A stretch of 64,000 nt of DNA. It comes from Labilibacter sediminis. Its GTDB lineage: Bacteria; Bacteroidota; Bacteroidia; Bacteroidales; Marinilabiliaceae. The DNA is taken from positions 186,001 through 250,000 of the forward strand of contig NZ_VCHY01000003.1 of assembly GCF_005877885.1 (NCBI RefSeq), written 5' to 3'. Position 1 is the stretch's first letter; each line of letters begins with the position of its first letter. The position numbers were made by a program, and so were the translations under genes. The notes below the pieces were generated by a model. The model saw only the letters and a program-made list of their open reading frames with translations. It searched no databases and had not been told where the DNA came from. Positions 16,967-49,916 of this stretch are shown here, in pieces.

Positions 16967-17132
16967 CCCGCATTATGTATTAGAACTTCGTCATGAGGAT
17001 TGAAAGTGCAATAAAACAAGACTTTACCGAAACGAGGCATAGCATCGTTCTGGTGAGTTGAGGTGAAGTAACGAAGTGACTTTTTTTGAAGGAATTTCAA
17101 TGTGTAATAGATTTTCTAATGCATATTATGGG
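16967..17132 (-). mobile_element. 166-bp miniature inverted-repeat element (MITE), copy 1
   Basis: Begins CCCGCATTATGTATTAG and ends CTAATGCATATTATGGG, and is flanked by a perfect 5-bp direct repeat TTAAA (16962-16966 and 17133-17137). It has exactly the length of the two other copies (38714, 49751) and lies in the opposite orientation to them. No ORF. It lies between the nitroreductase stop codon and the terminator. Confidence 0.9.
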
Positions 17133-17136
17133 TTAA

Positions 17137-17167
17137 AACACTCTAGATCAAACCCCTAGGGTGTTTT
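17137..17167 (+). terminator. Terminator of the nitroreductase gene
   Basis: AACACTCTAG pairs with CTAGGGTGTT (one G-T pair) and is followed by TTTT. It was separated from its gene by the inserted miniature element. Confidence 0.65.
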
Positions 17168-17270
17168 ATATGCAGTATACAAATCAGAAAAGTACCTTAG
17201 CAATAAACAGCTTATTAAATTTAAAAAAAGTAAATCTCCTGAATGCCTTAAAACTATGCCAATAGCTACA

Positions 17271-18065
17271 TTATTTAAAGAACAGCAAAACGGCAGATAT
17301 GGCAATTACACCTAACACAAAAAAACGATAGGCCTTTTCCGGAATTAATTTAACCAGTTGTTTTCCTGTAAAGGCACCAACTAATAAAACAGGTAACATC
17401 ACAAGATTTAGTTGAAAAGTACTTGCTGTAATGGATTTCCAGTAAAAAACATGAATAGGAACTTTAAGCACATTAAGCATTAAATAAAACCAGGCTCCTG
17501 TGCCAATAAAACTATTCTTGGGCAAACGCATACTCATCAGGTACAAATTAAAAATAGGACCTGCTGCATTGCCTATCATAGTGGCAAAACCACCCGATAA
17601 CCCCAATGAAGTAGAAAACCATTTTTTATCGGTAAAAGAATCTTTTTTACCCGAATAGTCCTTATAAATTATTATGACCAAACAAACCAATATGGCCACT
17701 CCAATGGTATCTCTAAACTGATCATCATTAATATACTTACCTACAAAAGTAGCCAATACTACACCCAATAATGCCCACGGTAAAAGTATTTTAATATACT
17801 TCCATTTGGCATTGCGACTATAATAAATGACTGCAAATGTATCGCCAAATATTAAAAACGGTAAAAGAATCCCTACAGAAGCCATACCTCCATACAGATA
17901 GGCTAAAATTGGAATATTAATCATGGCAAAACCTTTAAGTCCACTCTTACTTAAGCCTGTTACCAATGCACATAAAACAGTGATCCACCATGTAAACCAA
18001 TTTGTATGTAATGGATTAAGAATTGATTCTAACATAAGCACAAAGGAAAGCATTATTTTATGCAA
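17271..18065 (-). CDS. Sulfite exporter TauE/SafE family membrane protein
   Basis: A 264-aa permease of the TauE/SafE (formerly DUF81) family with about eight hydrophobic segments. Typical is the first half GLSKSGLKGFAMINIPILA followed by a repeated second-half segment LGLSGGFATMIGNAAGPIFNLYL. The family moves sulfur or organic anions out of cells; the specific substrate cannot be inferred. Transcribed alone. The longest start is used; a later Met (MLESILN) is possible. Confidence 0.88.
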   Translation of the reverse strand: MHKIMLSFVLMLESILNPLHTNWFTWWITVLCALVTGLSKSGLKGFAMINIPILAYLYGGMASVGILLPFLIFGDTFAVIYYSRNAKWKYIKILLPWALLGVVLATFVGKYINDDQFRDTIGVAILVCLVIIIYKDYSGKKDSFTDKKWFSTSLGLSGGFATMIGNAAGPIFNLYLMSMRLPKNSFIGTGAWFYLMLNVLKVPIHVFYWKSITASTFQLNLVMLPVLLVGAFTGKQLVKLIPEKAYRFFVLGVIAISAVLLFFK

Positions 18066-18272
18066 CTTTTATAATTTTTTACACAAATCAAAAATCTATC
18101 AATACATCCCACATAATCTTTCATTTATTCTAATAACTAAAATGCATTACACCTTATATTTTAGCTTATCTATCATCAATTTAATAGAGCAAAAGTGGTA
18201 ATTTTTAAGTATATTATATCGCTCCTTAATTTGTTAAGTACCATTCGTTTTTAGTTAGATACGATAAGTTAA

Positions 18273-21200
18273 ATGTTAAAGTATTTTACTCTAATCATAT
18301 TAAGTTTAGTGTTTCAGGTAACAGAAGCAAAATACTGGTTTGTACCTGTGGAAACTGAAGTTGGTGCCAATATGGTACGCTCTGTATTTCGTGATCACAG
18401 AGGTTACCTGTGGGTTGGTAACCAAAGAGTTGGACTAATGAGATATGATGGGTACGAAATGCATCAATACCTTCATAACGACGAAGACTCCTTATCATTA
18501 AGTAGTGATTTTGTAACATCTATTCATGAAGATTCTCATCACACGCTTTGGATTGGTACAGCACGCGGATTAAATAAATACATTCCGGAACAAGATAAAT
18601 TCGCCCACTACCACTTCGGAGATGAAAGCATTACACACCTTTCATCTAAATACATTAATAATATTATTGAAGCACCTGATTCTTCTCTTCTAATCCTAAG
18701 TCAGAAAGGCATTTTCAAGTATAATAGAAATACAGACTCCTTTACTTCTTTACCAATTACCAATTTAAACTCCAACAATATTATGTGTGCAGATTGGGAT
18801 AGCCAGGGTAGAATGTGGTTTGGTACTAACAGTAAAGACGGCCTTTTTCTATATCACCCTAATGATTCATCCTTTGAATATTTTCCGTATACCAACACCC
18901 AAACAAATTTATCAGGATATAAAACACTGGTCATTGATGATAAGGATAGATTTTGGTATGGACACTTTGGTGTTGGTTTTGCAGAATTCAATCCAAATAA
19001 CAAGAAGTTTAAGTTTTATCCAACAAAAAGAGAAGGAATTGGAACTTTTGGCACAAGTATACATTGTATTACTGAGATTGATGATACCAATATATTTATA
19101 GGAATAGACCAGGGAGGAATAAATATCTTTAATCGCGAAACAAAGCGATTTAGATATATCTTAAACTCAAACCCAACATACGGCAAATTACTATCCAATG
19201 GAATTTACTGTATTCACAAAGATTATGAAGGTATTATTTGGGTAGGAACATCCCGGGGAGGAATAAGTTATTCTAATGCTAAAGAAACACGCTTTAATAG
19301 TTACAATCCCATTGCCATCCCCAATGTTAGAAAAAACCAACCCTTATATTATCCCTCATTTGGTTTTAACAGTTGTTTTTTAGAGGATTCGCAAGGCTTA
19401 ATCTGGATTGGCACTGACGGCGGAGGTGCATTCACTTATAACAGGGATACCAAACGATTTAAAATGTTGCAAAGATTTTTACCTCCTGATTTTAACGTAA
19501 TCAGAGCCATCAATGAAGATTCAGATGGTAATATTTGGCTAACTCCCTGGCAGGGTAATGTCACTAAATTCTACCCTGTTACCAAAACTTATACTATAGA
19601 ATATTTTACATCGCAAAATACTGTTGAACTTAGCGACCGTTCATTTTGGAGTATGTTTATCGATAGTAAGGATCGTTTTTGGATCACACGTAACTATGGA
19701 GAAATTGATTTATACAATAAGAATAAAGAGTTGATAAATGAATTTTTTATTGGTGATTCATTAGGCTATATGAGTTCAAAGATCTTTGAAAGCAAAAGCG
19801 GGAACATTTATTCCGTTTCACGGGCAGGTATACACAGATTAGATGAAACCAAAAATACCATGAACAAAATTGTAGATATCACCAAACTGGCCTACATGGA
19901 TTTTGATGAAAATGAAGACATCTGGTTTGGTGGCGATTTTGGAAAAATTTATCATTGCGATAAAAACGGAGAAAATATAACTACCTATAAAATTGATATT
20001 GGTATAGAAAGAGTTTTAATACAAGCCGTAAAATATGCAAACAATCAGGTTTACGCATCAACCAATTGTGGACTAATTATTTACGATATCAACTCAAAGG
20101 ATTTTACACAATTTACAAAAGAAGACGGCTTACAGGGTGATCAGTTTTTTTTGCAGTCGGGACTAAAAACCTCCAATGGTGAAATCTTTTTTGGAGGTAT
20201 TAACGGGTTTAGCACATTTAAACCGGATATGCTCACCAAAAACCTTGTACTCCCACCTGTATACATAACTAACCTTCAGGTATCACAAAAAAAAGAAAAA
20301 CACCAACAAAACACCATCTCTTACAATATCAGAACCGAATATTTAAATAAAGTAGAGTTAGATTGGAAATCGCAACAGACTCTGCAACTTAATTTTGTGG
20401 CGATTAATTTAACATTTCCTGATAAAAATAAATTTGCATATAAACTGCATGGTTACGATGAAGAATGGCATAGCTCCAATGCCTATTCGAGAAAAGCCGT
20501 ATACACCAATCTTAACCCGGGTGAATATAAATTTCAGGTTATAGCCAGCAATAACGATGGATTATGGAATAAAGAGGGAAGCACATTGACCATTATTATC
20601 CACCCCCCTTTCTGGAAAACCGGATGGTTTTACGCTCTTGTATTTGTTTTAATTATAGTCCTTTTTTATTTGGGTTTTATGTATCGCGAACGAAAGATCG
20701 TATTATACAACCAAAGATTAAAGGTTGAAGTAGACAGACGCACATACATTATCCAACAACAAAAAGAAAAGCTTGATGAACAAAATCAAACGCTGGAAAA
20801 TCAATACGAAGAATTAGAAACCAACCAGGAAGAGTTACAGGTGCAGAATGAAGAACTTTTTATGCACAGAAACCATTTGAAGCAGCTTGTTGACGAAAAA
20901 ACCCGGGACCTGATTAAAGCCAAAGAAAAAGCAGAAGAATCGGATAAATTAAAATCTTCATTCTTAGCCAATATGTCGCACGAAATACGTACACCAATGA
21001 ATGCTATTGTTGGTTTCTCCGGCTTACTTACCGATCCTGAACTTCCCGTAGAAGAAAGAAAAAAATATGTTTCAATGGTTACCTCCAATACCGAATCATT
21101 GCTTCATTTAATAGAAGATATTCTTGACTTTTCCATGATTGAAAGCAATCAAATGAAAATTGTTTTTCACGAAGTTTCTATAAATGATTTACTAAACAGC

Positions 21201-21617
21201 ATCTACAATAATTTTGCACTAAGAAATAAATCAAAGCACGTAGAGTTCCGACTTAACAATGAGATTGAAGAAAAAAATCTAAATATTCATTCAGATGAAT
21301 ACCGGATTCAACAAATCCTTACCAACCTAATGAGTAATGCCATAAAATTTACACCCAAAGGCTATATCGAGTTAGGATGCAAGTTAAATAATAACAAGCT
21401 TGAAATATATGTTACCGATACAGGAATGGGCATGAGCCTAAAAGAACAAAGTTTAGTATTTAAGCAATTTGTGAAAATTGATAAAGACAAATCGGAAAAC
21501 AAAAGAGGTGTTGGTTTGGGCTTAACAATTTCCAACAGATTGGCCCAAATGCTTAATTGTAGCCTGAATGTAAAATCTGCTTTAAATAAGGGGACTACCT
21601 TTACTTTAACCTTTTAG
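18273..21617 (+). CDS. Two-component propeller sensor histidine kinase, no receiver domain
   Basis: 1114 aa. Signal peptide, then about 14 propeller repeats (motifs such as [45 protein letters not shown]) to about residue 680; a Y_Y_Y domain at about 690-770; one membrane helix near 787-808 ([18 protein letters not shown]); a Glu-rich coiled coil; HisKA with phospho-acceptor His903 in [18 protein letters not shown]; and HATPase with N box [17 protein letters not shown] and [10 protein letters not shown]. It stops there. Classic hybrid regulators of the phylum add a receiver and AraC domain, both absent. No response regulator gene lies next to it, so the partner is elsewhere. The input is presumably periplasmic. 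Confidence 0.94.
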
Positions 21618-21641
21618 AAACCTGCTGTACTATGCAAAATT

Positions 21642-21659
21642 CCCGGGTTAAAACCCGGG
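21642..21659. terminator. Palindrome after the sensor kinase gene
   Basis: CCCGGGTT/AACCCGGG nearly without loop, 24 bp after the stop. No T-run follows, so it may be a processing or termination hairpin of another type. Confidence 0.4.
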
Positions 21660-21714
21660 TCTAGTGATAGAATCAATCACTTATAAATCCTCTTTCAATT
21701 TCAGCTAAATTATT

Positions 21715-21722
21715 TATATTTG
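21715..21722 (+). promoter_or_regulatory. Probable -7 element of the tRNA-Arg promoter
   Basis: TATATTTG fits TAnnTTTG and ends 17 bp before the mature tRNA 5' end. The -33 element is not obvious. Confidence 0.55.
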
Positions 21723-21739
21723 CATCCAGCATAAGGGAT

Positions 21740-21811
21740 GGCCCCATAGTTCAAGGGATAGAATAGTTGTTTCCTAAACAATAGATACTGGTTCGAGTCC
21801 AGTTGGGGCTA
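21740..21811 (+). tRNA. tRNA-Arg (anticodon CCT)
   Basis: A full cloverleaf can be drawn. Acceptor GGCCCCA/TGGGGCT (first pair G-U), D stem GTTC/GAAT, anticodon stem GTTGT/ACAAT with loop TTCCTAA (CCT at 34-36), T stem ACTGG/CCAGT with loop TTCGAGT, discriminator A. CCA is not fully encoded. Its 3' end is the integration site of the following island, which restores the 3' sequence. Confidence 0.95.
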
Positions 21812-21834
21812 CTAGATAGTTTTATTACCAACTG

Positions 21835-21870
21835 AATATCACCTCTTTAATTAGGGGTGATATTTTTTTT
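21835..21870 (+). terminator. Terminator at the left end of the island
   Basis: AATATCACCTC pairs with GGGGTGATATT and is followed by TTTTTTT. It now ends the tRNA transcript in place of the chromosomal terminator moved to 27787. From 21871 to 22069 nothing else is seen. Confidence 0.75.
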
Positions 21871-30282: not shown

Positions 30283-30545
30283 CCGTAGCCACTAAATAAT
30301 GTAAATCGTTCGGTATAGTATCCCAACCTGCCAACTAACAGGAAGCTCATGCTAAAACAACAAAGTCGATGAAAGTTTAAGGAGTACTTTTAAATTTTTG
30401 CTTACTATAACTTTTATATTATTTTAGCTAGGCTTTAAAGGCATAACAAATTATAATTTTCAGACAATAACCATATGGTGCAAATTGGGCATATATTCTG
30501 CAATAAAAACAAAGGGATAAGAACGATAAATACATTAGGCATGTT
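30283..30545 (-). repeat. Intron-like spacer repeat U1 (partial)
   Basis: The first member of the spacer family of 30.3-35.4 kb. Block B (ACTAAATAATGTAAA, CGGTATAGTATCC) at 30283-30350 matches 31375-31440. A2 (TTGGGCATATATT, CAATAAAAACAAAGG, ATAAGAACGATAAATAC) at 30474-30545 matches 31300-31350, 31985-32045 and 33465-33525. The domain V part is missing here. Confidence 0.6.
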
Positions 30546-30568
30546 AAGATGTTCGTAGCTAATTTAAC

Positions 30569-31174
30569 ATGATGGCAAATTCAAATGACATACAACAATT
30601 ATTAATTTCTTCTGAAAACTGGACAGTGGCTTTAAAGTGCGAGAGTTGGGGTTCCGGAACAATTACCGACGAGATACATAAAGCTGATATGGAAATCGAA
30701 TTGTCGCAAAAAGGAGTATGGGATTCAATTTTGGAATTACAGGTTTCACATAAACAAGATAAAAAAACTTGCATTGTGAAAGGTATTCAAGGAAGTACAT
30801 ATTTACACGCAATTAATGACGACAATGAGGGTCAGTCAGTTAAAATTGATAGCGATAACCTTATTTTAAGTTTAGGTATCAACTTTATTAGTATTGACTT
30901 GAATAATTTAAAACTAAATTGGAAACTTGAACCAGATATGGCAGAAGTTTTTGAGTTTTATGATTTAGAGGGAGATTATTTGCTTCGGGGAGAAGTTGGA
31001 ATTCATAGGATTGACAAACTAGGCAATATTAAATGGACTTTTACCTCACAAGACATATGGGTAAATATGGAAGGGCGCCCTGAAGTGACAATAACTGACT
31101 CTACAATAAAATTATTAGATTTTAACTCCTACGAATATGAAATAAATTTTAATGGAAAACTAATAGAAAATTAG
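30569..31174 (+). CDS. Hypothetical protein
   Basis: 201 aa with no recognised domain. Rich in beta-strand-like alternation (WTVALKCESWGSGTI, YLLRGEVGIHRIDKLGNIKW) and Trp, suggesting a small beta-sandwich or beta-propeller-like cytosolic protein; no signal peptide. It is the first gene of a set of unrelated genes, each followed by a similar minus-strand spacer. The spacer starts right after the stop codon. Start ATG at 30569 (a second Met follows at once). Confidence 0.7.
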   Translation: MMANSNDIQQLLISSENWTVALKCESWGSGTITDEIHKADMEIELSQKGVWDSILELQVSHKQDKKTCIVKGIQGSTYLHAINDDNEGQSVKIDSDNLILSLGINFISIDLNNLKLNWKLEPDMAEVFEFYDLEGDYLLRGEVGIHRIDKLGNIKWTFTSQDIWVNMEGRPEVTITDSTIKLLDFNSYEYEINFNGKLIEN

Positions 31175-31182
31175 CTACTATC

Positions 31183-31440
31183 GAGTAAATGGCCAATGGG
31201 CATATAGCCCACTGGTGCACCTCTTTCACCACGTACTTGAGGATCTCGTATACGACGGTTCCTTACATCATGGGAAACAACGAAGTTGATACTGAAGAAA
31301 GATTGGCATGTAGTGTATAATAAAAACAAAGGTGTGAGAACAATAAATATCATCACCACTGCTCACTATATCAACTAAATAATGTAAAACGTACGGCATA
31401 GCATCCTGGCTTGCCAGCTGGCATGACAGTTTTGATACGT
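31183..31440 (-). repeat. Intron-like spacer repeat U2 (domain V-VI fold)
   Basis: Read on the minus strand, 31228-31260 gives AACCGTCGTATACG...AGTACGTGGT, a hairpin with the layout of group II intron domain V. Next comes CCAGTGGG/CCCATTGG (31186-31215) as a domain VI-like hairpin. To the right are CAACGAAGTTG, the A2 block and block B with CTGGC/GCCAG pairs. No reverse transcriptase is encoded. Confidence 0.55.
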
Positions 31441-31499
31441 GATTCAAAAAAAAGTAAAGTATTAAATTTGGGATAAACATTTATGAAAAATGAATAATT

Positions 31500-31880
31500 A
31501 TGACAGATTATGATATTCTAAAATATTTGGGGCTTGACATCAGTGATCAGAAAGTTATATTTTATGACGATAAGTCAAATAATTATATTTTGGAACTTAA
31601 TGAAATAAAGGACATCTCCTTAGACAATGCTTACATACCTCTAGAAAAGAAATTAGGATTCTGGTTTGAGAAACTTTTCGTACAACGGAGCTTTATGGGT
31701 ATTTTAGACTCTAAAACTTACAATGACGACTATCGAAATATCTATGACTTGGAAATTGAGTTAATTGATAATCGTGTTCTTTCTAGAAAAGTTATAGATG
31801 CCGACATAACTGAATGTAAAGAATTCATTAGTGAAATAAGTAAATTAATAACGCCCCATAATCTATTAGATGACCAATAA
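31500..31880 (+). CDS. Hypothetical protein
   Basis: 126 aa, acidic, no signal peptide or membrane segment and no recognised domain. Segments such as VIFYDDKSNNYILELNEIKD and FGFWFEKLF-like LGFWFEKLFVQRSF suggest a small folded cytosolic protein. It lies between spacer repeats U2 and U3, as a single-gene unit; its neighbours give no hint to its function. Confidence 0.7.
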   Translation: MTDYDILKYLGLDISDQKVIFYDDKSNNYILELNEIKDISLDNAYIPLEKKLGFWFEKLFVQRSFMGILDSKTYNDDYRNIYDLEIELIDNRVLSRKVIDADITECKEFISEISKLITPHNLLDDQ

Positions 31881-32050
31881 GCAAATAACCAACTAGTACA
31901 CCTCTCCCACCTCCGTGCGTAGGGTCATGTATAGGAGTTTCTCTACATCAATTGGAACAACGAAGTTGATATTGAAGAAAGATTGGCATGTATTATACAA
32001 TAAAAACAAAGGTATAAGAACGATAAATACAACAGGCATGTGGAGGTGTT
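31871..32050 (-). repeat. Intron-like spacer repeat U3
   Basis: Same organisation as U2 without block B. The domain V-like hairpin lies at 31909-31940 (degenerate: AAACTCCTATAC...GCACGGAGGT on the minus strand), then CAACGAAGTTG and the A2 block to about 32045. It begins at the last codons of the preceding gene. Confidence 0.5.
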
Positions 32051-32079
32051 GAGTCAAGTAAAGAAAAACCCTGAATATA

Positions 32080-32655
32080 ATGAAGGAAAGCCTTAGAAAT
32101 ATGCTCAAATCAGTTAATATTCTGACGGATTCAGAAATAACGAACGGATTAAATTATTTTGAACCAAAGTCCTTTAAAAAAGGAGACATTTTGATTGAGG
32201 CTGGAAAGATTTGTAACTGGATGGCATTTGTAAACTCAGGTGTTTTGAGAAATTTTTACATTTCCAGTAAAGACGAAGAAGTAACTTACTGTTTAACTTT
32301 TCCAAATAAAGTAATATCTGCATTTTCTTCTTTTATGACACATAAGGAAACCTTCGAAAACATACATGCACTAACAAATGTGGAACTTTTAGTAATCCGA
32401 CACAATCAATATTATGAATTAATGAATTCGAGTGAGAATTGGCTTAAATTTTCAAGATTCGTTGCAGAACAATCATATATTGAAATGGAAAATCGATTAC
32501 TTGCACTACAAATGGAATCGGCAAAAAAGCGTTATGAAAATTTGTTAAAGTTCAATCCAGATTATTTACAAAAAGTACCCCTAAAATATCTTGCATCTTA
32601 CCTTGGTATTACTCATAGACACCTTAGTCGTTTAAGAAAGGAAATTTTCTTTTAG
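32080..32655 (+). CDS. Crp/Fnr-family transcriptional regulator
   Basis: 191 aa. The N-terminal cyclic-nucleotide-binding fold is visible in SFKKGDILIEAGKICNWMAF and NSGVLRNFYISSKDEEVTYC. The C-terminal short HTH LKYLASYLGITHRHLSRLRK is typical of Bacteroidota Crp-like proteins. No Cys cluster for an Fe-S cluster, so not FNR proper. It lies 70 bp upstream of the flavodoxin-fold oxidoreductase in the same direction and may control it. Confidence 0.88.
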   Translation: MKESLRNMLKSVNILTDSEITNGLNYFEPKSFKKGDILIEAGKICNWMAFVNSGVLRNFYISSKDEEVTYCLTFPNKVISAFSSFMTHKETFENIHALTNVELLVIRHNQYYELMNSSENWLKFSRFVAEQSYIEMENRLLALQMESAKKRYENLLKFNPDYLQKVPLKYLASYLGITHRHLSRLRKEIFF

Positions 32656-32725
32656 ACATTTGTCCTTTCAAAGTAATCTATCTGCCAATACTTTTGATCT
32701 TCAAATTTGAATTAATATTTTAATT

Positions 32726-33298
32726 ATGAAGACAACAATAGTATTCGCTCACCCGTGGCATGGTAGTTTTAATAAAGCCATTTTAGATGCAGTAATTAAT
32801 AAACTTGAAGCTAAATCAAAAGAATACCATATTATCGACTTAAACAAAGACAATTTTAACCCTGTACTTCAGGAAAAAGACCTTGCTCTGTACTCAAAAG
32901 GTGAGACTTCTGACAAATTAGTGCTTAGTTATCAAGAGATACTAAAGGAAACATCAGAACTGATATTTATGTTTCCTATTTGGTGGTATGACCTACCTGC
33001 AGTCTTAAAAGGTTTTGTTGATAAAGTAATGCTTAAAAATTTCTCTTATGTTGAGACTAAATATGGCTTGAAAGGAATACTTACCCACATTAATAAAACT
33101 GCAGTTATAACTACTTCAGAGTATCCGACATGGTATCTGAAATTCTTATCAGGTAATCCCATAAAAGGAACATTTATAAATAAAACATTAAAAGGTGTTG
33201 GACTTAGAAATATAAAATGGGTTAATAGCGAATATACCACATCAGGTAAAAATGAGAAAAGAAAAGAGTTCTTACGAAAGATAGAATCACTTTTTTAA
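32726..33298 (+). CDS. NAD(P)H-dependent oxidoreductase, flavodoxin-like fold
   Basis: 190 aa of the NQO/KefF/MdaB type: TTIVFAHPWHGSFNKAILDAV (FMN loop), ELIFMFPIWWYDLPAVLKGFVDKV and a YGLKGILTHINKTAVI segment. These FMN enzymes reduce quinones by two electrons; the actual substrate is open. It is paired with the preceding Crp-type regulator, both inside the spacer-bounded unit U3-U4. Confidence 0.9.
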   Translation: MKTTIVFAHPWHGSFNKAILDAVINKLEAKSKEYHIIDLNKDNFNPVLQEKDLALYSKGETSDKLVLSYQEILKETSELIFMFPIWWYDLPAVLKGFVDKVMLKNFSYVETKYGLKGILTHINKTAVITTSEYPTWYLKFLSGNPIKGTFINKTLKGVGLRNIKWVNSEYTTSGKNEKRKEFLRKIESLF

Positions 33299-33344
33299 GA
33301 ATTAGTAATAGCTTTAAAAACAAATACGGCAAACAATCCAGTAG

Positions 33345-33525
33345 ATGAACAGTGAGTAAATAGCCAACTGATGCACCTCACTCACCACAGTACATGTTGG
33401 TCTCGTATACGGCGTTTCCTTACATCATAGGGAACAACGAAGTTGATATCAAAAAAAGATTGGCATGTATTGTACAAGAAAAAACAAAGGTATAAGAATG
33501 ATAAATGCAATAGGAATGTGGATAT
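33345..33525 (-). repeat. Intron-like spacer repeat U4
   Basis: The domain V-like hairpin at 33384-33415 reads AAACGCCGTATACG...GTACTGTGGT on the minus strand, then CAACGAAGTTG and the A2 block (TTGGCATGTATTGTACAA, AAAAACAAAGGTATAAGAA). No block B. The remainder to 33670 shows nothing recognisable. Confidence 0.55.
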
Positions 33526-33670
33526 ATTGGCAACAAGCATCTGAATAGAACGCTCTTCTTTATATAGGAAAATCTTCCTGGAAGCCGTAACTTAGGATAC
33601 AGTTTTCTTGGTTTGAATGCTAAAAACAACAAAAATTAAAATAACAATTGAAACATTTAAAAATAACATT

Positions 33671-34264
33671 ATGAGATTCTGTGTTTTATTCGCATTCTTT
33701 GCACTACTAAACTTGTACAGTGCAGTGGCTCAAAAACAAGGTTACGATATTGGCGATAAATTTGAAGATTTTACTGCCATTGATGAAAATGGAAAGGAGT
33801 GGGATGCCTCGAAATTAATAGGTAAAAAAAATATCGTCATTTACTTCTATCCGGCAGCCATGACTGGAGGTTGCACCAAACAAGCCTGTGCTTACCGTGA
33901 CGATTTAAAATCTCTCGATAGCCTCAATGCAATTGTGGTAGGCATAAGTGGCGATTCCCCTGAAAATCTTGCCCTATTTAAAGAAGCATACAAACTTAAT
34001 TTTACCTTATTATCCGATCCGGAAGGAAAAATTGCCCTGCAGTTTGGTGTACCGGTAAAAGAAGAAGAAAAGTCAATCGTTCGTGCGGTTGCCGGTATTG
34101 AACATGTATTGGTTCGAAAAGCTACCACGGCTCGTTGGACTTTTGTATTTAACGAAAAAGGAACACTAATATACAAATCTTCGGATGTAATTGCTGCCCA
34201 AGACAGTAAGAGTGTAATTAATGCATTGAAAGGCACAATTAAGTCAAGTAAGAAAACACCGTAG
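33671..34264 (+). CDS. Exported peroxiredoxin (PrxQ/BCP type)
   Basis: About 197 aa. The ATG at 33671 is chosen because it opens a signal peptide (MRFCVLFAFFALLNLYSAVA); an upstream in-frame ATG at 33617 would add a charged leader. The AhpC/TSA domain has the peroxidatic Cys68 and resolving Cys73 spaced as in PrxQ (GGCTKQAC), then VVGISGDSPENLALF and FTLLSDPEGKIALQFGVP. It should reduce peroxides outside the cytoplasm with a thioredoxin-like donor. It shares a spacer-bounded unit with the methyltransferase downstream. Confidence 0.9.
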   Translation: MRFCVLFAFFALLNLYSAVAQKQGYDIGDKFEDFTAIDENGKEWDASKLIGKKNIVIYFYPAAMTGGCTKQACAYRDDLKSLDSLNAIVVGISGDSPENLALFKEAYKLNFTLLSDPEGKIALQFGVPVKEEEKSIVRAVAGIEHVLVRKATTARWTFVFNEKGTLIYKSSDVIAAQDSKSVINALKGTIKSSKKTP

Positions 34265-34348
34265 GATAAAAATTACCAGATGGACAATTTGGCACTTTAA
34301 CGGACTGACTGATAAAATAACAAACTAACCCAAGAATTAAGTACAACT

Positions 34349-35260
34349 ATGAGTGACTCTATATTTAGAAAAGATGGTACTGCCCAAGGGGTTGCAAAAC
34401 AGCGCTTGATTGAATCACTGGCAAAACCTGATAAACGTATTATATATGATCCCTATTCCGACAAGTTTGTACTTGGAGCAAGTATAATCAAACTTATGGG
34501 GCATAAGCTGAGCGTTTGGCTAACTAAAAAGTTCGCCCCTGGTTTTCACGAACATTTAATTGCTCGTACTCGATTCATTGATGACCTTATTGAAAAAAGT
34601 GCTGCTAATGGGGCAGAACAATATGTCATTCTAGGCGCGGGATATGACTTACGGGCTCATCGTCTTAATCTTTCACCTACATTGAAAATATTTGAAGTTG
34701 ATCAGCTTGAAGTTCAGCTTAGAAAGCGTTCTAAACTTCCTAAAAACTTACCTAATTCAGAAAACGTTACGTATGTAAGTGTCGACTTTAATCACCAGAC
34801 TCTCAAAAAACAGCTTTTGAATGCAGGTTTTGATCAAAATAAACCTACAGTTTTCACCCTTGAAGGTGTCTCACAGTATATATCAAAAGATGCCATTATT
34901 TCAACGTTAGAAGAGTTGGCTGAGCTTACTCAAAAAACAAGTGCTACTTTTTATATTTCTTACGTTGATAAATTACTAAATGAAAACCCTAAGGCCTGCT
35001 TTGGTAAGGGGTATTCCAATGCCCCAAAGATAGCGGAAACAATAAAAAAATTATCTGCTAAGGTTGGGGAACCCTGGATATCATTCTACTCAGCTGAAGA
35101 AATTGAAGGACTGCTTTCTCAACATGGGTTTTCATTAATAGAAAATAAATCGTTAGCTGATCTAAACTCTGTATACTTTACTCCTGTAGGCAGAACTCTT
35201 TCTGAAGATCAAATTTTCAAACTCGAACATTTTGTAATAGCAAAAAATAAAAGCTTGTAA
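34349..35260 (+). CDS. SAM-dependent methyltransferase (PF04072/TIGR00027-like)
   Basis: 303 aa. The family is recognised from RTRFIDDLIEKSAANGAEQYV, VILGAGYDLRAHRLN (SAM loop with the typical GAGxDxRxxRL), KIFEVDQLEVQLRKRSKL and TVFTLEGVSQYIS. Related proteins are leucine-carboxyl-type O-methyltransferases; the substrate is unknown. It ends at the edge of spacer U5. Confidence 0.9.
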   Translation: MSDSIFRKDGTAQGVAKQRLIESLAKPDKRIIYDPYSDKFVLGASIIKLMGHKLSVWLTKKFAPGFHEHLIARTRFIDDLIEKSAANGAEQYVILGAGYDLRAHRLNLSPTLKIFEVDQLEVQLRKRSKLPKNLPNSENVTYVSVDFNHQTLKKQLLNAGFDQNKPTVFTLEGVSQYISKDAIISTLEELAELTQKTSATFYISYVDKLLNENPKACFGKGYSNAPKIAETIKKLSAKVGEPWISFYSAEEIEGLLSQHGFSLIENKSLADLNSVYFTPVGRTLSEDQIFKLEHFVIAKNKSL

Positions 35261-35263
35261 TCA

Positions 35264-35372
35264 AGTAGATGGCCAGTGAGTAAATAGCTCACTGGTATAC
35301 CTCTCCCTCCGCCGTGCCTAAGGGTCTCGTACGCGACGGTTCCTTGCATCATAGGAAACAACTCATTTGATA
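35264..35372 (-). repeat. Intron-like spacer repeat U5 (best-preserved domain VI)
   Basis: On the minus strand the domain V-like hairpin (35307-35340) reads AACCGTCGCGTACG...GCACGGCGG and is followed by CCAGTGAG/CTCACTGG around a 7-nt loop (35273-35295). Compared with U2, both arms changed together, which supports a real stem. The A2 block is missing; the repeat stops before the WYL gene. Confidence 0.6.
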
Positions 35373-35388
35373 TTTATGGTTTAATAAA

Positions 35389-38646: not shown

Positions 38647-39062
38647 TTACCATGTGTAATTTAAAGCCAAAAACCGGCCCATAGAGCATTTACCTTTTGC
38701 GCTATACCTTTAACCCGAAATATGCATTAGAAAATCTATTACACATTGAAATTGCTTCAAAACAAGACACTTCGTTGCTTTACCTCGATTCACCAGAGCG
38801 ATGCTATGTCTCGTCTCAATAAAGCCTTGTTTTATTGCACTTTCACTGTTCATAACGAAGTTCTAATACATAATTCGGGTTTAAATACTTTGTGCTGCTT
38901 TTCTCTTCTAATGTGACAAACAGGTATAGGAGTTGAATCGATGAATGAAATTCCAGTGCATTTACCTAGACAACAAACCTGAAGAAACACAGTCATAGGC
39001 ATTAGAACCTTTTGCTGAAGCTCAGTGAAGCGCTTGTAAGATACAGTTGATGAAACCAACAA
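38647..39062 (-). pseudogene. IS982-type transposase remnant split by a miniature element
   Basis: On the minus strand 39062-38880 encodes VSYKRFTELQQKVLMPMTVF, LGKCTGISFIDSTPIPVCHI and QHKVFK. After the 166-bp element the reading resumes at 38713 with KGIAQ and, one frame on, GKCSMGRFLALNYTW. Joined, this is the IS982 catalytic segment (DST, then HKVFKGIAQ). Both ends of the IS and the rest of the gene are gone. Confidence 0.75.
38714..38879 (+). mobile_element. 166-bp MITE, copy 2, inserted in the IS982 remnant
   Basis: CCCGAAATATGCATTAG to CTAATACATAATTCGGG, with a perfect 5-bp duplication TTTAA at 38709-38713 and 38880-38884. Removing the element and one duplication restores the transposase codons KVFKGIAQ. 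Same length as the other copies. Confidence 0.92.
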
Positions 39063-41998: not shown

Positions 41999-42017
41999 GA
42001 ATCCTCTCAATCCTTTA

Positions 42018-42688: not shown

Positions 42689-42710
42689 TTCTCAAAAACG
42701 GTATTGACAT

Positions 42711-44516: not shown

Positions 44517-45782
44517 TTAAATTAAATAGGCAAATAAATCATGATTCTTATTAACATACTCTCCAAAAAAATTCTTCGCCTTCATTCTTTCTAACAAAGG
44601 TTTAAAATCAGCCTTATCTTTTAGCTCAATCCCTACCAGGGCTGGTCCTTTTTCGCGGTTTATTTTTTTAGCGTATTCAAACAAAACAATATTATCATCA
44701 GGACCAATAATATCGTTTACAAACTCTTTTAAAGCCCCCGGGCGCTGTGGAAAACGTACAATAAAATAATGCTTTAAACCTTCGTACAACAATGAACGCT
44801 CTTTAATTTCTTCGGTGCGTGTAATATCATTGTTGCCACCACTGATAATACACACCACTTTTTTGCCTTTAATTTTATCTTTATACTGCTCTATGGCAGC
44901 AACAGACAAGGCCCCTGCCGGCTCAGCAACAATAGCCTCATTATTATAAAGTTCCAATATTTTGGTACAAACCTTTCCTTCCGGCACCAACAGCATATCA
45001 TCTAAATTCTGTTTGCACACAGGAAAGGTATAGTCGCCTACACGCTGCACAGCAGCACCATCAACAAACTTATCAATCTCCGGTAACGAAACAACCTTAT
45101 CCTGCTTCAACGACTGATACATTGCAGGCGCTCCCTGAGGCTCTACTCCGATAAGTTGGATATTTGAATTGGTTTTCTTTATATAGGTACTTAATCCTGC
45201 AGTTAATCCACCTCCCCCAACAGGAATAAAAACAAAATCTGCATCGGGAAGATCCTCCATAATTTCAATACCAATGGTACCTTGTCCCTCTATTACTTTG
45301 GGGTCATCAAAAGGAGGAATAAATGATAAATTATTTTCACGACTATAATTTAAAGCTTTTGTATTGGCATCATCAAAAGTATCTCCATGCAAAACAACTT
45401 TTACCCATTCTTTGCCAAGTGTTTTTACGCGCTTAATTTTTTGCTGCGGAGTAGTTGAAGGCATATAAATTGTTCCTTCAACCTTTAGTTTAAAACACGA
45501 AAGTGCTACACCTTGAGCATGATTACCTGCACTGGCACAAACCACTCCTCTCTGAATATCTTCCAAAGGTAAGGAAGCCATTTTATTATATGCCCCTCGG
45601 ATTTTATAAGAACGAACCACTTGCTGATCTTCGCGTTTAAAATAAATTTCAGCTTCATACTTATCTGAATAAGTATGATTATACTCTAAAGGTGTTCTGC
45701 GGATGACACCTTGTAAACGAGATGCTGCTTCATTTATATCACTTATCGTTGGTATATATGTATATCGCTCTTGATTCGTCAT
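44517..45782 (-). CDS. ilvA: Threonine ammonia-lyase (threonine dehydratase)
   Basis: 421 aa. Converts threonine to 2-oxobutanoate for isoleucine synthesis. PLP lysine is Lys60 in VRSYKIRGAYNKM; the phosphate-binding loop is PVGGGGLTAGLS; SAGNHAQGVA is also present. A C-terminal ACT-like domain (HYFIVRFPQRPGALKEFVND) of about 90 residues indicates feedback regulation, in the short single-domain form. Transcribed alone from a -7 element at 45826. Confidence 0.95.
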   Translation of the reverse strand: MTNQERYTYIPTISDINEAASRLQGVIRRTPLEYNHTYSDKYEAEIYFKREDQQVVRSYKIRGAYNKMASLPLEDIQRGVVCASAGNHAQGVALSCFKLKVEGTIYMPSTTPQQKIKRVKTLGKEWVKVVLHGDTFDDANTKALNYSRENNLSFIPPFDDPKVIEGQGTIGIEIMEDLPDADFVFIPVGGGGLTAGLSTYIKKTNSNIQLIGVEPQGAPAMYQSLKQDKVVSLPEIDKFVDGAAVQRVGDYTFPVCKQNLDDMLLVPEGKVCTKILELYNNEAIVAEPAGALSVAAIEQYKDKIKGKKVVCIISGGNNDITRTEEIKERSLLYEGLKHYFIVRFPQRPGALKEFVNDIIGPDDNIVLFEYAKKINREKGPALVGIELKDKADFKPLLERMKAKNFFGEYVNKNHDLFAYLI

Positions 45783-45825
45783 GAAATTGTATAATTTGCT
45801 TAGCTCTTATATATCTTTAAAAATG

Positions 45826-45833
45826 CAAATATA
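45826..45833 (-). promoter_or_regulatory. Probable -7 element of ilvA
   Basis: TATATTTG on the minus strand, 43 bp upstream of the ATG. -33 element not evident. Confidence 0.5.
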
Positions 45834-45910
45834 CGAATGCTTTAAACAGGATAATAAAGCTTCGGTTTTTGATATAAAAAGGATAATTCGAAGTAAAAAT
45901 GCCAGGGTAC

Positions 45911-45940
45911 AAAAAAAGCCTCACTGGAAAAGCGAGGCTT
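45911..45940 (-). terminator. Terminator of the cold-shock gene
   Basis: On the minus strand AAGCCTCGCT/AGTGAGGCTT followed by TTTTT, 26 bp after the stop. Confidence 0.88.
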
Positions 45941-45966
45941 GGATCTGCGTATTATATTGATATATC

Positions 45967-46158
45967 TTATGCCAATTTAACGTTTACCGCATTTAATCCT
46001 TTACGACCTTCTTTTAATTCGAAAGTAACTTCGTCGTCTTCTTTGATTTCATCAATAAGACCTGTTACGTGTACGAAATACTCGTTGTCTGATTCGTTGT
46101 CTTTAATAAATCCAAAACCTTTAGATTCATTGAAAAATTTAACTTTTCCTTCTTTCAT
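45967..46158 (-). CDS. Cold-shock domain protein (CspA family)
   Basis: 63 aa RNA chaperone. RNP1 motif KGFGFIKD and RNP2 YFVHVTGL are present; starts MKEGKVKFFNESKGFGFI. Normal length for the phylum's Csp. It has its own terminator and a promoter covered by a 20-bp palindrome (46180). Confidence 0.95.
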   Translation of the reverse strand: MKEGKVKFFNESKGFGFIKDNESDNEYFVHVTGLIDEIKEDDEVTFELKEGRKGLNAVNVKLA

Positions 46159-46179
46159 AATAATTGTAAAATAATAACT

Positions 46180-46199
46180 AATGATACAAATGTATCATT
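46180..46199. promoter_or_regulatory. Palindrome overlapping the cold-shock gene promoter
   Basis: AATGATACA-AA-TGTATCATT, perfect 9-bp arms. It contains the minus-strand -7 element TACATTTG (46187-46194), 28 bp upstream of the ATG, so a bound protein would block the polymerase. The remaining 46200-46472 shows nothing. Confidence 0.6.
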
Positions 46200-46472
46200 T
46201 TAAGTTGGATATCAACTAATAATTCAAAAAAAATCAAAACTTTACTGATATTTTATATTAAAATCACAATTAGCTAAATATCAGCACAATAATTATCACA
46301 ACAGATATATTATCATATATTTGTTCTTCTAAAAGCATTATTTATTAATTCAACTTATCTGGTATATAAGCAAACATCGCTATTATAGAAAGTAAAAAAT
46401 AAGGCTTTTTTTTCCCTTTCTCCAAAGGCATAAACAATATTGTAATTTACACCAATCCCTATCAAAGCAACT

Positions 46473-47813
46473 TTAATACGCCTTATCGGCCAAACCCATA
46501 CCATTAATTTTACGGTATAAATTTAGCGCATAAATATCCGTCATACCGCTTATATAATCTAAAACAGATTGCAATTTTTCATATGCGTTAGCATCTTCCG
46601 AGACACTATATTGTTCCGGAATAAAAGGAAGCAACATTTCTGAATAGTTATCTTTGGGATTAAGAATTGCCGTAGAAAATTCATGTAGCAGAGATCCCAA
46701 AATCTTAAATCCTGAAATCTCAATTTCCACAACTGAAGGATGTCGATATATTTTTTCGAAGGAAATTTTTTCACAGTTCTTCATGGCTGCTTTTGTTTCT
46801 CCTTGCAGGTATTTAGTTAAGCTTCCCTGAAATTTGCCGGCCATGATTAACTCATAGTTATCTTTAAATATTTTAGTACACTTTGCAACAAGCTTACCAA
46901 TTACAGAAGCTCTGATTAAAGCAATTTGCTCATTGATATCTGTTACCTCTTTACACACATCTGCTATCCGGTCTCTTGTACCCTTATCCTCATTTTCATT
47001 TAAAAATGCCATTAATATTTCTTTGGTCTGATAGGTGTCCAGGATTTTAAGTTTATGCGCATCTTCTACATCCATTACCTGATAACAAATATCATCAGCT
47101 GCCTCCACCAAATAAACCAAAGGGTGCCTACAAAAAACGCCAGGTTCTGTTTCAATTAAACCTAAATCCTTAACTACGCGATTAAACATCTCTTTTTCTG
47201 ACTGAAAGAAGCCATACTTTTTTTTGTGGCTAATGCCGGATGCGTATGGATATTTTAAAATGGAAGCTACCGATGAATAGGTTAATGAAAAACCTCCTTT
47301 TCGACGACCATTAAACTGATGTGTTAACAAACGAAAAGCATTGGCGTTACCTTCAAACTCAGTTAAATCATTCCATTCTGCATCCGAAAAGGTATATTGA
47401 TCTTTTAATTTTTTACCTTCTCCGTTTTTAAAGTAATGCGACAGCGCCGATTCTCCGGAATGGCCAAAAGGCGGATTACCCATATCGTGTGCCAAACAAG
47501 CTGTTGCTACTATTGAGCCTATCTCGTTGACCAGATCAGTGTCTATATCTTTTTCATCTTTTAAAAACTCTGCGATATTATGCCCAAGCGAACGACCAAC
47601 ACTGGCTACCTCCAAACTATGGGTTAGCCTGTTATGAACAAAAACACTTCCCGGCAGTGGAAACACCTGCGTTTTATCCTGCAGTCTTCTAAATGGAGAT
47701 GAAAAAATTAAACGGTCATAATCGCGTTGAAACTGTGTTCTGCGATGTTTTTCTGTATTAACCTTATCCTCTTGTCCTGTTCTTTTTGCAGATAAAAGTT
47801 GATTCCAATTCAT
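46473..47813 (-). CDS. dgt: Deoxyguanosinetriphosphate triphosphohydrolase-like protein
   Basis: 446 aa from the Met of MNWNQLLSAKR; an earlier in-frame start adds non-conserved residues. HD-domain dNTPase: FSSPFRRLQDKTQVFPLPG, VHNRLTHSLEVASVGRSLG, CLAHDMGNPPFGHSGE (HD metal site) and a late LVEAADDICYQVMDVEDAH. Hydrolyses dNTP to nucleoside and triphosphate, thereby controlling the pools. It ends far from the next gene. Confidence 0.93.
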   Translation of the reverse strand: MNWNQLLSAKRTGQEDKVNTEKHRRTQFQRDYDRLIFSSPFRRLQDKTQVFPLPGSVFVHNRLTHSLEVASVGRSLGHNIAEFLKDEKDIDTDLVNEIGSIVATACLAHDMGNPPFGHSGESALSHYFKNGEGKKLKDQYTFSDAEWNDLTEFEGNANAFRLLTHQFNGRRKGGFSLTYSSVASILKYPYASGISHKKKYGFFQSEKEMFNRVVKDLGLIETEPGVFCRHPLVYLVEAADDICYQVMDVEDAHKLKILDTYQTKEILMAFLNENEDKGTRDRIADVCKEVTDINEQIALIRASVIGKLVAKCTKIFKDNYELIMAGKFQGSLTKYLQGETKAAMKNCEKISFEKIYRHPSVVEIEISGFKILGSLLHEFSTAILNPKDNYSEMLLPFIPEQYSVSEDANAYEKLQSVLDYISGMTDIYALNLYRKINGMGLADKAY

Positions 47814-47883
47814 ATAATATATTTTTACTTTTCCAGTAGCTGATAAAACAAAGCTATCTATCAACTTTATTTTTTAAATGTCA

Positions 47884-48600
47884 TTAATAGATGACAGTTC
47901 TATAACTCTTCATTTCCTTATCCCACATTTTAGCACGCCCATTGGTAACGCGATCCATTAACTTCCAAAAACCAGGTCCGTGATTTTTCTCTACTGTATG
48001 ACAAAGCTCATGCAGCAATACGCTATCAATTAAATAATCAGGCAATCGCATTAAATGCAAATTAAGATTGATGTTATTAACCCCGGAGCAACTTCCCCAG
48101 CGCGACTTTAAATTTTTAATAAATACCTTATTATATGAAAAGCCGTTTTGTTGCGCTAATTGTTTCAAACGAAAGGGTAAATAGTTTTTAGCAGATATCC
48201 TTAACGCTTCTTCAATGGCATATCGGATATTATCCTGTATAAGTGAAGATTTAACATCATGTGTGTGTGGATATTCAACAGACAACAGACCGTCTTTTAA
48301 CTGCATACGCATTTGCGAAATTGGCGACTTCTTTATTCTTAGAGCAAACGATCGTGTTTTAAACTCGGTGGATTCATCAAAAATAGTGAGGTCATTTTCT
48401 TTTTCCTTCACCTTAGCCAGATTGTTCAGAATCCATTTTTTATTAGATTCCACAAAAGAAAGAGCCTCTCTTGCGCTCATACTAACAGGCACAATAACTT
48501 TTATGGGTTCAAATGGCTTAAGCTTTATAGACAATCGTTTTGCTCTTTTACTTATTTGAAACAAAACGGGACCAATGTCATTAATATTTACTAGCTCCAT
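47884..48600 (-). CDS. YgjP-type (DUF45/M48) zinc metallopeptidase
   Basis: About 238 aa from the Met of MELVNINDIG. The zinc site is clear: HELCH (His197, His201) and His207 in EKNHGPGFW; the preceding segment LKSRWGSCSGVNNINLNLHL is typical of the family. Such proteins are cytosolic putative proteases often next to SWI/restriction genes; here none is near. Adjacent to dgt (70 bp). Confidence 0.9.
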   Translation of the reverse strand: MELVNINDIGPVLFQISKRAKRLSIKLKPFEPIKVIVPVSMSAREALSFVESNKKWILNNLAKVKEKENDLTIFDESTEFKTRSFALRIKKSPISQMRMQLKDGLLSVEYPHTHDVKSSLIQDNIRYAIEEALRISAKNYLPFRLKQLAQQNGFSYNKVFIKNLKSRWGSCSGVNNINLNLHLMRLPDYLIDSVLLHELCHTVEKNHGPGFWKLMDRVTNGRAKMWDKEMKSYRTVIY

Positions 48601-48913
48601 ACCTGCAAAATAAGTTAAATATGCTATGATTACCAACTTAAATTAATTCTCAAAACCATAGTTATTGAGTATACGACAAGCCTGGATATTTTATTGATTA
48701 CTGTCAAATCTTCTTCTCTCCATGTCAAAAAATCAGCAAAACAAAACACATGTATGACACTCTGTCTTAACCAATTAAACACAAAACCAGTCTTAAAAAA
48801 CCAAACTCATTGTGTTTCATCCACATACAAAAAAGCAAACAAAAACAGCTGAAAATGGCATTTTAATTGAAGCCCTTGTAACGAAACTAATCATTATTGT
48901 TAAACTTAATTAT
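48601..48913. other. Intergenic region upstream of the Hsp20 gene
   Basis: Divergent spacer between the YgjP-type gene and Hsp20. It is AT-rich, with no repeat or clear promoter motif that I can support. Confidence 0.4.
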
Positions 48914-48918
48914 GGAGG
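48914..48918 (+). promoter_or_regulatory. Shine-Dalgarno-type site of the Hsp20 gene
   Basis: GGAGG eight bases before the ATG at 48927. This is notable because genes of this phylum usually lack such sites, and few others in the window have one. Confidence 0.6.
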
Positions 48919-48926
48919 AATAAGTC

Positions 48927-49379
48927 ATGACACTAAGAAGGTTATCAAACAATTGGCTTCCATCATTTCCTTCATTCTTTAATCACTTTTTTGAAGATGA
49001 ATTGATGGATTGGGATAGTAATAACTATTCGGGAGCAAACAACACATTACCAGCCGTTAATGTTTTAGAAACTGATACTGCTTACCAAATTAAACTAGCT
49101 GCTCCGGGTATGAAAAAAAAGGATTTTAACGTTAGCTACGAAAATGGACGATTAAACATCTCATCCGAACTTAAAAAGGAACATCAAGAAAAAGACGGAC
49201 ATAAAATTACCCGCCTTGAATATAGCTACCAATCCTTTAAAAGATCTTTTAACATAGCCGAAAACAGCGTTAAGGCGGATAAAATTAAGGCTGAGTACAA
49301 GGATGGCATCTTAAACATCACTTTACCCAAACAAGATGCTGTTATTACTAAGCCATCAAGAATAATTGAAATTCAATAA
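48927..49379 (+). CDS. Hsp20-family small heat-shock protein
   Basis: 150 aa alpha-crystallin-type chaperone. N-terminal FPSFFNHFFEDELMD, core PAVNVLETDTAYQIKLAAPG, KKDFNVSYENGRLNISSELK, a late DKIKAEYKDGILNITLPKQD and a C-terminal IxI-like IIEIQ. Normal length. It prevents aggregation of unfolded proteins in the cytosol. Confidence 0.95.
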   Translation: MTLRRLSNNWLPSFPSFFNHFFEDELMDWDSNNYSGANNTLPAVNVLETDTAYQIKLAAPGMKKKDFNVSYENGRLNISSELKKEHQEKDGHKITRLEYSYQSFKRSFNIAENSVKADKIKAEYKDGILNITLPKQDAVITKPSRIIEIQ

Positions 49380-49534
49380 TTTATCTATGGGCAGAATGTA
49401 AATCTGCCCATTAATGCATTTGTATATAAAAAATAAAAAAACAAAATATTCATTAACCATCAAACACTTAGCATATTTTTTGAAGTCATTAAAACATTAT
49501 TCAAGATATGTTGAACCATTAAAAGTTTAGCACT

Positions 49535-49735
49535 ATGTTAAAACACCAAAAAGCTGTATTAAACGGGGTTAGAAACAACCGGAATTTATTTAAAAAGGAA
49601 TTAATTAAATCTTTGCATTGGATGAGCAATAGCGAACTAAGTCAATTTGTAAAATGGGTTAAAACAAACTTCTATCGTGAGTATGCCGAATTAATTAATG
49701 ATGTATTGAATCAATATCCGGCATTGAGTAAATAA
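49535..49735 (+). CDS. Small hypothetical protein
   Basis: 66 aa: KSLHWMSNSELSQFVKWVKT and YREYAELINDVLNQYPA form two amphipathic helices with the aromatic residues on one face. No family known. It follows Hsp20 by 155 bp and ends just before the MITE copy at 49751; the hairpin at 49924 was probably its terminator. Confidence 0.6.
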   Translation: MLKHQKAVLNGVRNNRNLFKKELIKSLHWMSNSELSQFVKWVKTNFYREYAELINDVLNQYPALSK

Positions 49736-49750
49736 AAAACATAGTATAAA

Positions 49751-49916
49751 CCCGGAATATGCATTAGCTAATCTATTGCACATTGAAACTACTTTAAAAC
49801 AAATCGTTTTACTCACTTGCTTCAACTCACCATAGCGGTGCTATGCCTCGTTTCAGTAAGTGTTTGTTTTATTGTATTTTCAATGTTCATAACGAAAATC
49901 TAATGCATAATCCGGG
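49751..49916 (+). mobile_element. 166-bp MITE, copy 3
   Basis: CCCGGAATATGCATTAG to CTAATGCATAATCCGGG, with a perfect 5-bp duplication ATAAA at 49746-49750 and 49917-49921. The duplication differs from that of copies 1 and 2, so it belongs to the target, not the element. Same orientation as copy 2. Confidence 0.92.

Follow-up and report, generated by a model that had tools for sequence, protein, structure and literature searches.

A mobile, non-coding 166-bp element of Labilibacter sediminis with a conserved one-strand hairpin and ends resembling those of IS1380-family insertion sequences

Miniature inverted-repeat transposable elements (MITEs) of bacteria are usually regarded as passive leftovers of insertion sequences (ISs). 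A 166-bp element is present three times in a 64,000-nt stretch of the Labilibacter sediminis genome (assembly GCF_005877885.1, contig NZ_VCHY01000003.1, positions 186,001 to 250,000; hereafter the window), and it is a mobile, non-coding, intergenic MITE whose likely mover is an IS1380-family transposase. The more interesting feature of the element is a conserved, strand-specific hairpin, which was missed in an earlier note on this DNA. No description of the element turned up in searches of open-licence papers. It is compared here with the described systems that it resembles; sources given by PMC number are cited from excerpts.

ERIC (RU-1; ~127 bp, enterobacteria) is likewise a short, intergenic, palindromic MITE with a single long hairpin and many copies. 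The excerpt of PMC2229807 gives it TA termini and a 7-bp terminal repeat, whereas the present element has the form CCCG...CGGG; the two are set apart by description, not by sequence. YPAL (RU-2; ~168 bp, Yersinia) is palindromic and of nearly equal length, and its fold is conserved (RNAz P 1.00; excerpt of PMC2267715), as is that of the element. However, YPAL is described with internal repeats, without terminal repeats and with duplications of 3-26 bp (excerpt of PMC2229807), while the element has 17-19-bp terminal repeats and 5-bp duplications. Correia elements (NEMIS; 106-158 bp, Neisseria) are also MITEs, the RNA hairpin of which is reportedly processed by RNase III (excerpts of PMC10969869 and PMC2229807); they differ in their 24-bp ends with TA termini (excerpt of PMC2229807), and an effect on neighbouring mRNAs is reported for them, whereas the element shows no clear orientation bias. 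A non-autonomous MITE of Porphyromonas gingivalis, from the same phylum, contains a minisatellite and was compared by description only (excerpt of PMC4596501). The IS1380 family (NF033539; PF13701) shares with the element an AT-rich 5-bp duplication (TTAAT in the related genome G002) as well as the terminal sequence, the element ends differing from the IS end of the related genome G018 in 1-3 of 19 bases; unlike these ISs, the element has no transposase gene, and its interior is unrelated to the IS.

All three copies in the window are precisely 166 bp long and carry their own perfect 5-bp duplications, so that the coordinates and the site-specific TTAAA, TTTAA and ATAAA repeats given in the earlier note are confirmed (Table 1). 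The absence of an open reading frame (ORF) also holds: 166 bp provide at most 55 codons, and the element is non-coding, shorter than 500 bp and devoid of a transposase gene, as expected of a MITE. The common ends CCCG/CGGG claimed for the copies stand in part, as the ends are shared, but the CCCG terminus is not universal because copy 1 has CCCATAATATG... at its right end.

The window belongs to a genome of 6.36 Mb in 372 contigs, in which the 17-nt end pattern CCCGNANTATGNATTAG has 72+88 = 160 exact matches, a figure that counts ends and not copies; read backwards, as a control for chance, the pattern has no match. A DNA search with copy 1 matched in 40 of 40 scored candidates, among 215 first-look candidates, and nine places carry copies 98-100% alike to copy 1. 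Altogether, 102 distinct full-length insertions were collected in this genome (68 of precisely 166 bp), and the 19 insertions in 0.76 Mb taken without selection extrapolate to ~159 per genome. A sample of 1.107 Mb, composed of this 0.76 Mb taken irrespective of copies (C219, C311) and a remainder chosen mainly for end matches, holds 57 full copies, among which the 5-bp duplication is perfect in 38, has a one-base mismatch in 6 and at least two mismatches in 13. The perfect duplications are TTAAA (17), TTTAA (15), TTGAA (2) and TTTAT, TTCAT, ATAAA and TTAAT (1 each), while 8 of the 13 copies with a poor duplication adjoin the end of another insert (CAATG/CATTG or AACTA-type flanks). None of the 57 lies within an ORF of a greedy set (minimum length 90 aa). 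The neighbouring ORFs could be scored for 51 copies and are codirectional in 27 cases, convergent in 12 and divergent in 12, against a background of 395 codirectional, 81 convergent and 79 divergent gene pairs; in the 27 codirectional cases, the hairpin strand is that of the genes 17 times and the opposite one 10 times, which is no clear bias.

Direct evidence of insertion comes from the relative G038, in which the nitroreductase gene beside copy 1 has an orthologue (90% identical) and the TauE-type gene that comes next is also conserved (71% identical). Between these genes, where the window has ATTAAA followed by the element, a TTAAA and a hairpin of its own, G038 has a single ATTAAA directly succeeded by a hairpin with a T run, which represents the unoccupied site of copy 1. 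For copies 2 and 3, no such site was obtained, since their downstream genes were not found beside the fetched orthologues. Thus, the mobility proposed in the earlier note is borne out by 38 of 57 perfect, site-specific duplications and, for copy 1, by a syntenic locus that is empty and has TTAAA only once, and the same results contradict a static repeat with neither an empty site nor duplications elsewhere. The search of the genome and its relatives and the listing of duplications that the note had suggested yielded a high-copy family, mostly at TTAAA or TTTAA.

The conserved part of the element is its fold. From 242 copies (167 unique), 39 representatives less than 88% alike were chosen, and 34 of them form alignment A1; a second alignment, A3, comprises 26 rows hand-chosen from the model matches described below and from A1. 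RNAalifold on the 34 distinct copies of A1 predicts one long, full-length hairpin of 50 pairs, 32 of which have changes on both sides, and 93.9% of 1695 cells are paired, a value that falls to 34-44% when the alignment is slid by 1-3 columns. No shuffle out of 500 reached any of five measures in A1, where the aligned copies share ancestry, so that cells are not independent and shuffle counts are not probabilities. The hairpin contains a nearly invariant internal loop (TYCGTnATGA / AATAG), and the region between the ends measures ~130 bp. In A3, the interior still pairs, with changes on both sides in 28 of 35 pairs. The interior hairpin is therefore kept by compensatory changes. The hairpin was also considered as an integron attC site, but the flanking repeats are direct rather than inverted and the insertions are single and scattered, so that this reading was dropped.

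The fold belongs mainly to one strand. On this hairpin strand, A1 contains 164 G-U cells, spread over 35 of the 50 pair columns, and 27 A-C cells, spread over 20. The mean minimum free energy (MFE) is -55.0 in the forward and -39.2 in the reverse direction, the forward value being the lower in 33 of the 34 distinct copies, and the hairpin strand is also better by single-sequence MFE in 145 of 149 unique copies; the consensus energy is -41.1 for the hairpin strand vs -16.6 for the other. Because prediction on the forward strand itself favours G-U, additional counts were made. Pairs predicted on the reverse strand give a G-U:A-C ratio of 34:13, and a strand-symmetric choice of pairs gives 182:37 and 244:39 in A1 and 122:32 and 141:39 in A3. 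Among the pair columns, 28 hold more G-U than A-C and 5 hold fewer; a second count gives 27:2.

The hairpin extends far beyond this genome. In a sample of the family, the DNA search matched in 13 of 60 genomes (own included), belonging to 4 of 21 genera, and a search with the core pattern yielded 20 named stretches from three Carboxylicivirga genomes, Saccharicrinis sp. UBA6048, Draconibacterium aestuarii and metagenome-assembled genomes (one Prolixibacteraceae, two Bacteroidales). The Microscilla plasmid pSD15 carries a diverged copy. Across the order, the covariance model (R1) matched in 9 of 295 genomes at E up to 1e-6, namely the own genome and eight others that fall in seven other families; the matches listed are 158-174 bp long for the most part, apart from a 116-bp match and a partial one of 133 bp. 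Of 11 copies examined in G233 and G202, 10 start with CCTGA and the eleventh (L381) with AGTGA, and the duplications are perfect at 4 bp in 8 of 11 and at 5 bp in none. In all 17 rows folded in A3, of which 14 come from seven of the eight other genomes, the hairpin strand has the greater stability. Thus, terminal repeats and duplication length changed and the hairpin stayed. End-only blastn against plasmids returned chance-level matches except for the Microscilla plasmid at E 0.02, plasmids searched with a G233-type copy and phages gave no match to the element, and the core pattern had no match in viral_contigs. The 17-nt end occurs in 52 stretches of viral_contigs (L102-L153) as single matches, none of which is among the profile matches at E up to 0.01. 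Separately, one copy from another genus (L063; G058:C130:5265-5429) is 92% identical to copy 3, while other full-length cross-genome copies in that DNA search are 67-83% identical; the high identity makes a recent horizontal transfer possible. Many of the copies fetched from G032 form part of larger intergenic units that are repeated and reshuffled (L191:8000-15500; L183, L184, L190), and these copies often lack a duplication of their own.

A candidate for the mover emerged from a search for the element ends in 53 related genomes, which led to G010 and G018, where the ends are located at contig edges, as expected for a multicopy IS. The IS in G010 is 1394 bp long with one long ORF, and its 436-aa transposase exceeds the cut-offs of both NCBIfam transpos_IS1380 (261 bits, cut-off 180) and PF13701 (167 bits, cut-off 34.7); other copies of this IS end at TTAAA, TTTAA and TTCAT. 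G002, from the genus of the window, has a 1393-bp IS flanked by TTAAT/TTAAT, the transposase of which shares 78% identity with the G010 protein. The six ends in the window are identical to the IS end of G018 at 16-18 of 19 bases and then at 2-4 of the following 11, i.e., the similarity to an autonomous IS is restricted to the ends. The RNA model had no significant match in five fetched stretches with IS1380 ends or genes (best E 0.46). Since the window ends match the IS end and the sequences then diverge, the element fits a type-II MITE, as the concept is used in the excerpt of PMC10969869, with an IS1380-family transposase as its likely mover. The claim that an unknown transposase moves the element is thus retained as to an external mover and revised as to its identity, which relatives sharing the ends now indicate as likely IS1380; the autonomous IS with the same termini that the note had asked about was found in relatives, and none was found in the genome of the window. 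IS1380 is thereby named as the likely partner of a high-copy element in Carboxylicivirga, Saccharicrinis and Draconibacterium contigs. Other transposases were set aside. Of ten PF01609 matches in the own genome, two adjoin MITE ends (IS982-like and IS4-like, by eye only), but they have inserted into MITE copies and are not partners of the element; a G032 transposase (L191:8719-10673, IS1634-like by eye) is not tied to the element ends.

The drift of single insertions indicates where selection on the fold may act. The count drew on 104 own insertions (102 by a stricter recount, 68 of 166 bp) and took four clusters of at least 4 copies (30+8+11+14 = 63 copies). These hold 91 private changes, 42 at Watson-Crick pairs, 35 at unpaired and 14 at other paired positions. 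Private changes number 0.47 per paired and 0.53 per unpaired site; the 42 changes at Watson-Crick pairs comprise 13 to G-U, 7 to A-C and 22 to other mismatches. Were each insertion of use to the host, such changes would be expected to spare the pairs, which they do not clearly do. The four cluster consensuses, which stand for source elements, retain 42-46 Watson-Crick and 2-6 G-U pairs of 50. Because the source consensuses keep the fold, single insertions drift and orientation is 17:10, selection on the fold seems to act during propagation of the element and not on behalf of neighbouring genes. That the one-strand fold of the interior is conserved from family to family, although single copies decay, likewise points to selection on spreading.

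We consider it probable, from these sequence comparisons, that the element is a type-II MITE moved in trans by an IS1380 transposase and that its folded strand aids propagation; both the action in trans and the role of the strand are what we infer. In this mechanism, an IS1380-family DDE transposase would bind the ~19-bp ends CCCGNATTATGNATTAGAA in trans and insert the element into AT-rich, TTNAA-like sites, leaving a 5-bp duplication, and the element would have been amplified to an estimated ~160 copies in this genome. A folded single strand, most simply an RNA transcript and possibly single-stranded DNA, would be needed or useful during propagation, since the fold persists in the source lineages but not in individual insertions. 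The question thus raised is whether an element moved by a DDE transposase needs folded RNA or single-stranded DNA. A more specific version, which we regard as a tentative possibility, is a mobile structured RNA, in which the putative hairpin of a one-strand transcript would help its own DDE transposition by transposase recruitment or end pairing; with the same reserve, the hairpin module would then have survived, across families, both altered terminal repeats and a shift of the duplication length from 5 to 4 bp. If the selected molecule were instead single-stranded DNA, e.g., a replication-fork template whose hairpin joins the ends for the transposase, the same asymmetry would be expected as for RNA, and the 5-bp duplications do show a DNA transposition step. 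G-T is tolerated better than A-C in DNA hairpins. However, either strand may be the lagging template depending on orientation, the element is present in both orientations, and we know of no strand-specific DNA intermediate for IS1380; this alternative appears rather doubtful.

An ordinary IS1380-driven MITE, the arms of which are kept complementary by DNA-level correction (template switching or hairpin repair) without any role of a folded strand, would account for the mobility, the ends and the matched changes in both arms, and stable stem-loops are called typical of bacterial MITE transcripts in the excerpt of PMC10969869. Yet such correction is strand-symmetric and would not favour G-U over A-C, so that similar numbers of both are expected, whereas 164:27, 182:37 and 32:10 were observed, the last for pairs predicted on both strands; A-C, moreover, occurs in 20 of 50 pair columns but in only 27 cells, against 164 cells of G-U. 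We therefore judge arm correction unlikely. Host selection could also keep the fold if the hairpin influenced the stability, processing or termination of host mRNAs in cis: none of the 57 full copies sampled is within a predicted ORF, copies 1 (by eye) and 3 stand just before terminator-like hairpins, and RNA effects of ERIC and NEMIS are reported or proposed (excerpts of PMC2229807 and PMC10969869). Against this, the hairpin strand has no clear bias relative to codirectional genes, and private mutations are about as frequent at paired as at unpaired sites and mostly break pairs, which makes an action in cis quite improbable. The palindromic, intergenic and high-copy nature of the element also recalls REP/RAYT or IS200/IS605-type elements moved by a tyrosine (HUH) transposase. 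IS200/IS605 is not known to make a target duplication, and the 5-bp duplications, the empty site and the ends in common with a DDE element of the IS1380 family contradict such an origin, which we consider extremely improbable.

Several observations weigh against the preferred reading of an IS1380-driven MITE aided by its folded strand. As to the transposase, the PF13701 search of the window's genome gave no match (2 candidates scored), nor did the protein search for the IS1380 transposase (3 candidates scored), and the latter did not find it in the MITE-rich genomes G032, G036, G038 and G048; G012 and G022 have weak matches only (30% and 23% identity). The copies 98-100% alike to copy 1 suggest recent activity, so that the transposase may have been lost, transiently present or missed. 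Among the sampled genomes, only G018 clearly has both such IS ends and a MITE copy, and its IS was seen as ends only, not whole; both flanks of one single IS copy were not seen together in G010. As to the fold, pairs predicted on both strands show a smaller G-U excess than the main count, base composition alone would give G-U:A-C of ~1.5:1, unpaired C>T per C column is ~2 times G>A per G column, and the cells of related copies are not independent. The private G-U and A-C changes (13 vs 7) do not differ from 1:1 (p 0.26) in what is a small test, and they differ from 164:27 only at p 0.025. The opposite strand of copy 3 folds almost equally well (-60.0, z -10.7), while shuffle-controlled folding of copies 1 and 2 covered the hairpin strand only. 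Furthermore, the duplications are intact at two loci (L233, L258) occupied by 88/89-bp forms from which most of the hairpin is missing, and G032 contains ~52-bp end-to-end forms, one of which (L194) is flanked by TTAAA repeats. Such shortened forms with intact duplications imply that the hairpin may help rather than be required.

Within the window, copies 2 and 3 are direct repeats, 77% alike, and copy 1 is inverted relative to them, being 88% and 76% complementary to copies 2 and 3 over 178-179 nt. The nitroreductase gene upstream of copy 1 (16316-16948) lies on the strand of the copy 1 hairpin, the fold of which is the weakest of the three. The T-tailed hairpin to the right of copy 1 was seen by eye, the terminator scan giving it no score.

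Table 1. Element copies, target duplications and adjoining features. Positions refer to the window unless a locus is named.
Feature	Position	Strand	Remark
Left target duplication TTAAA, copy 1	16962..16966		single ATTAAA at the empty site of relative G038
Copy 1, 166-bp element	16967..17132	+	hairpin strand on +; MFE -43.8 kcal/mol, z -3.4
Right target duplication TTAAA, copy 1	17133..17137		hairpin and T-rich tail (ACACTCTAG...CTAGGGTGTTTTAT) directly after
Left target duplication TTTAA, copy 2	38709..38713		
Copy 2, 166-bp element	38714..38879	-	hairpin strand on -; MFE -55.1 kcal/mol, z -6.4
Right target duplication TTTAA, copy 2	38880..38884		
Left target duplication ATAAA, copy 3	49746..49750		
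Copy 3, 166-bp element	49751..49916	-	hairpin strand on -; MFE -62.0, z -10.1
Right target duplication ATAAA, copy 3	49917..49921		
Terminator-like hairpin just past copy 3, then T-rich tail	49924..49947	+	
ATCTAACTAATATTG insert loci	L230:440-930, L234:6156-6319, L226:556-723, L096:2840-3130		

MITE copies are themselves associated with other inserts. A second element of 329 bp without an assigned gene, with ends CAATGTCGTTTAGTTAAG (L060:1518-1846, L224, L260), is inserted, in either orientation, precisely at the CGGG terminus of MITE copies and has a duplication of ~10 bp, perfect in L260 and with one mismatch each in L060 and L224; one end only is present in L238, L239 and L177. This element may target MITE ends. 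An insert starting ATCTAACTAATATTG lies in or replaces a MITE end at four loci of this genome (Table 1). In addition, a ~20-bp palindrome, CCTGCC..GGCAGG, at one fixed place defines a 186-bp class (L053, L056, L040), and the same palindrome together with an interior deletion gives the 88/89-bp forms of two subfamilies (L233:11405-11492; L258:3352-3440). An insertion in L096, IS4-like by eye, has ends similar to this palindrome.

No Rfam family was found on the element: at or above the gathering score, the scan of the window matched only a cobalamin riboswitch and tRNA, and a scan of four element loci at E up to 1 gave two weak matches, both off the element. The riboswitch lies at 13697-13910 on the minus strand, upstream of a run of minus-strand ORFs. 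Between small ORFs at 30488-35373, repeats of 66-115 bp (families D2, D3 and D5) have no Rfam match; we take them to resemble group II intron-derived pieces. Finally, two 244-nt direct repeats, 84% alike, are present at 2751-2994 and 4183-4426, at the margin of the listed minus-strand ORFs or outside them.

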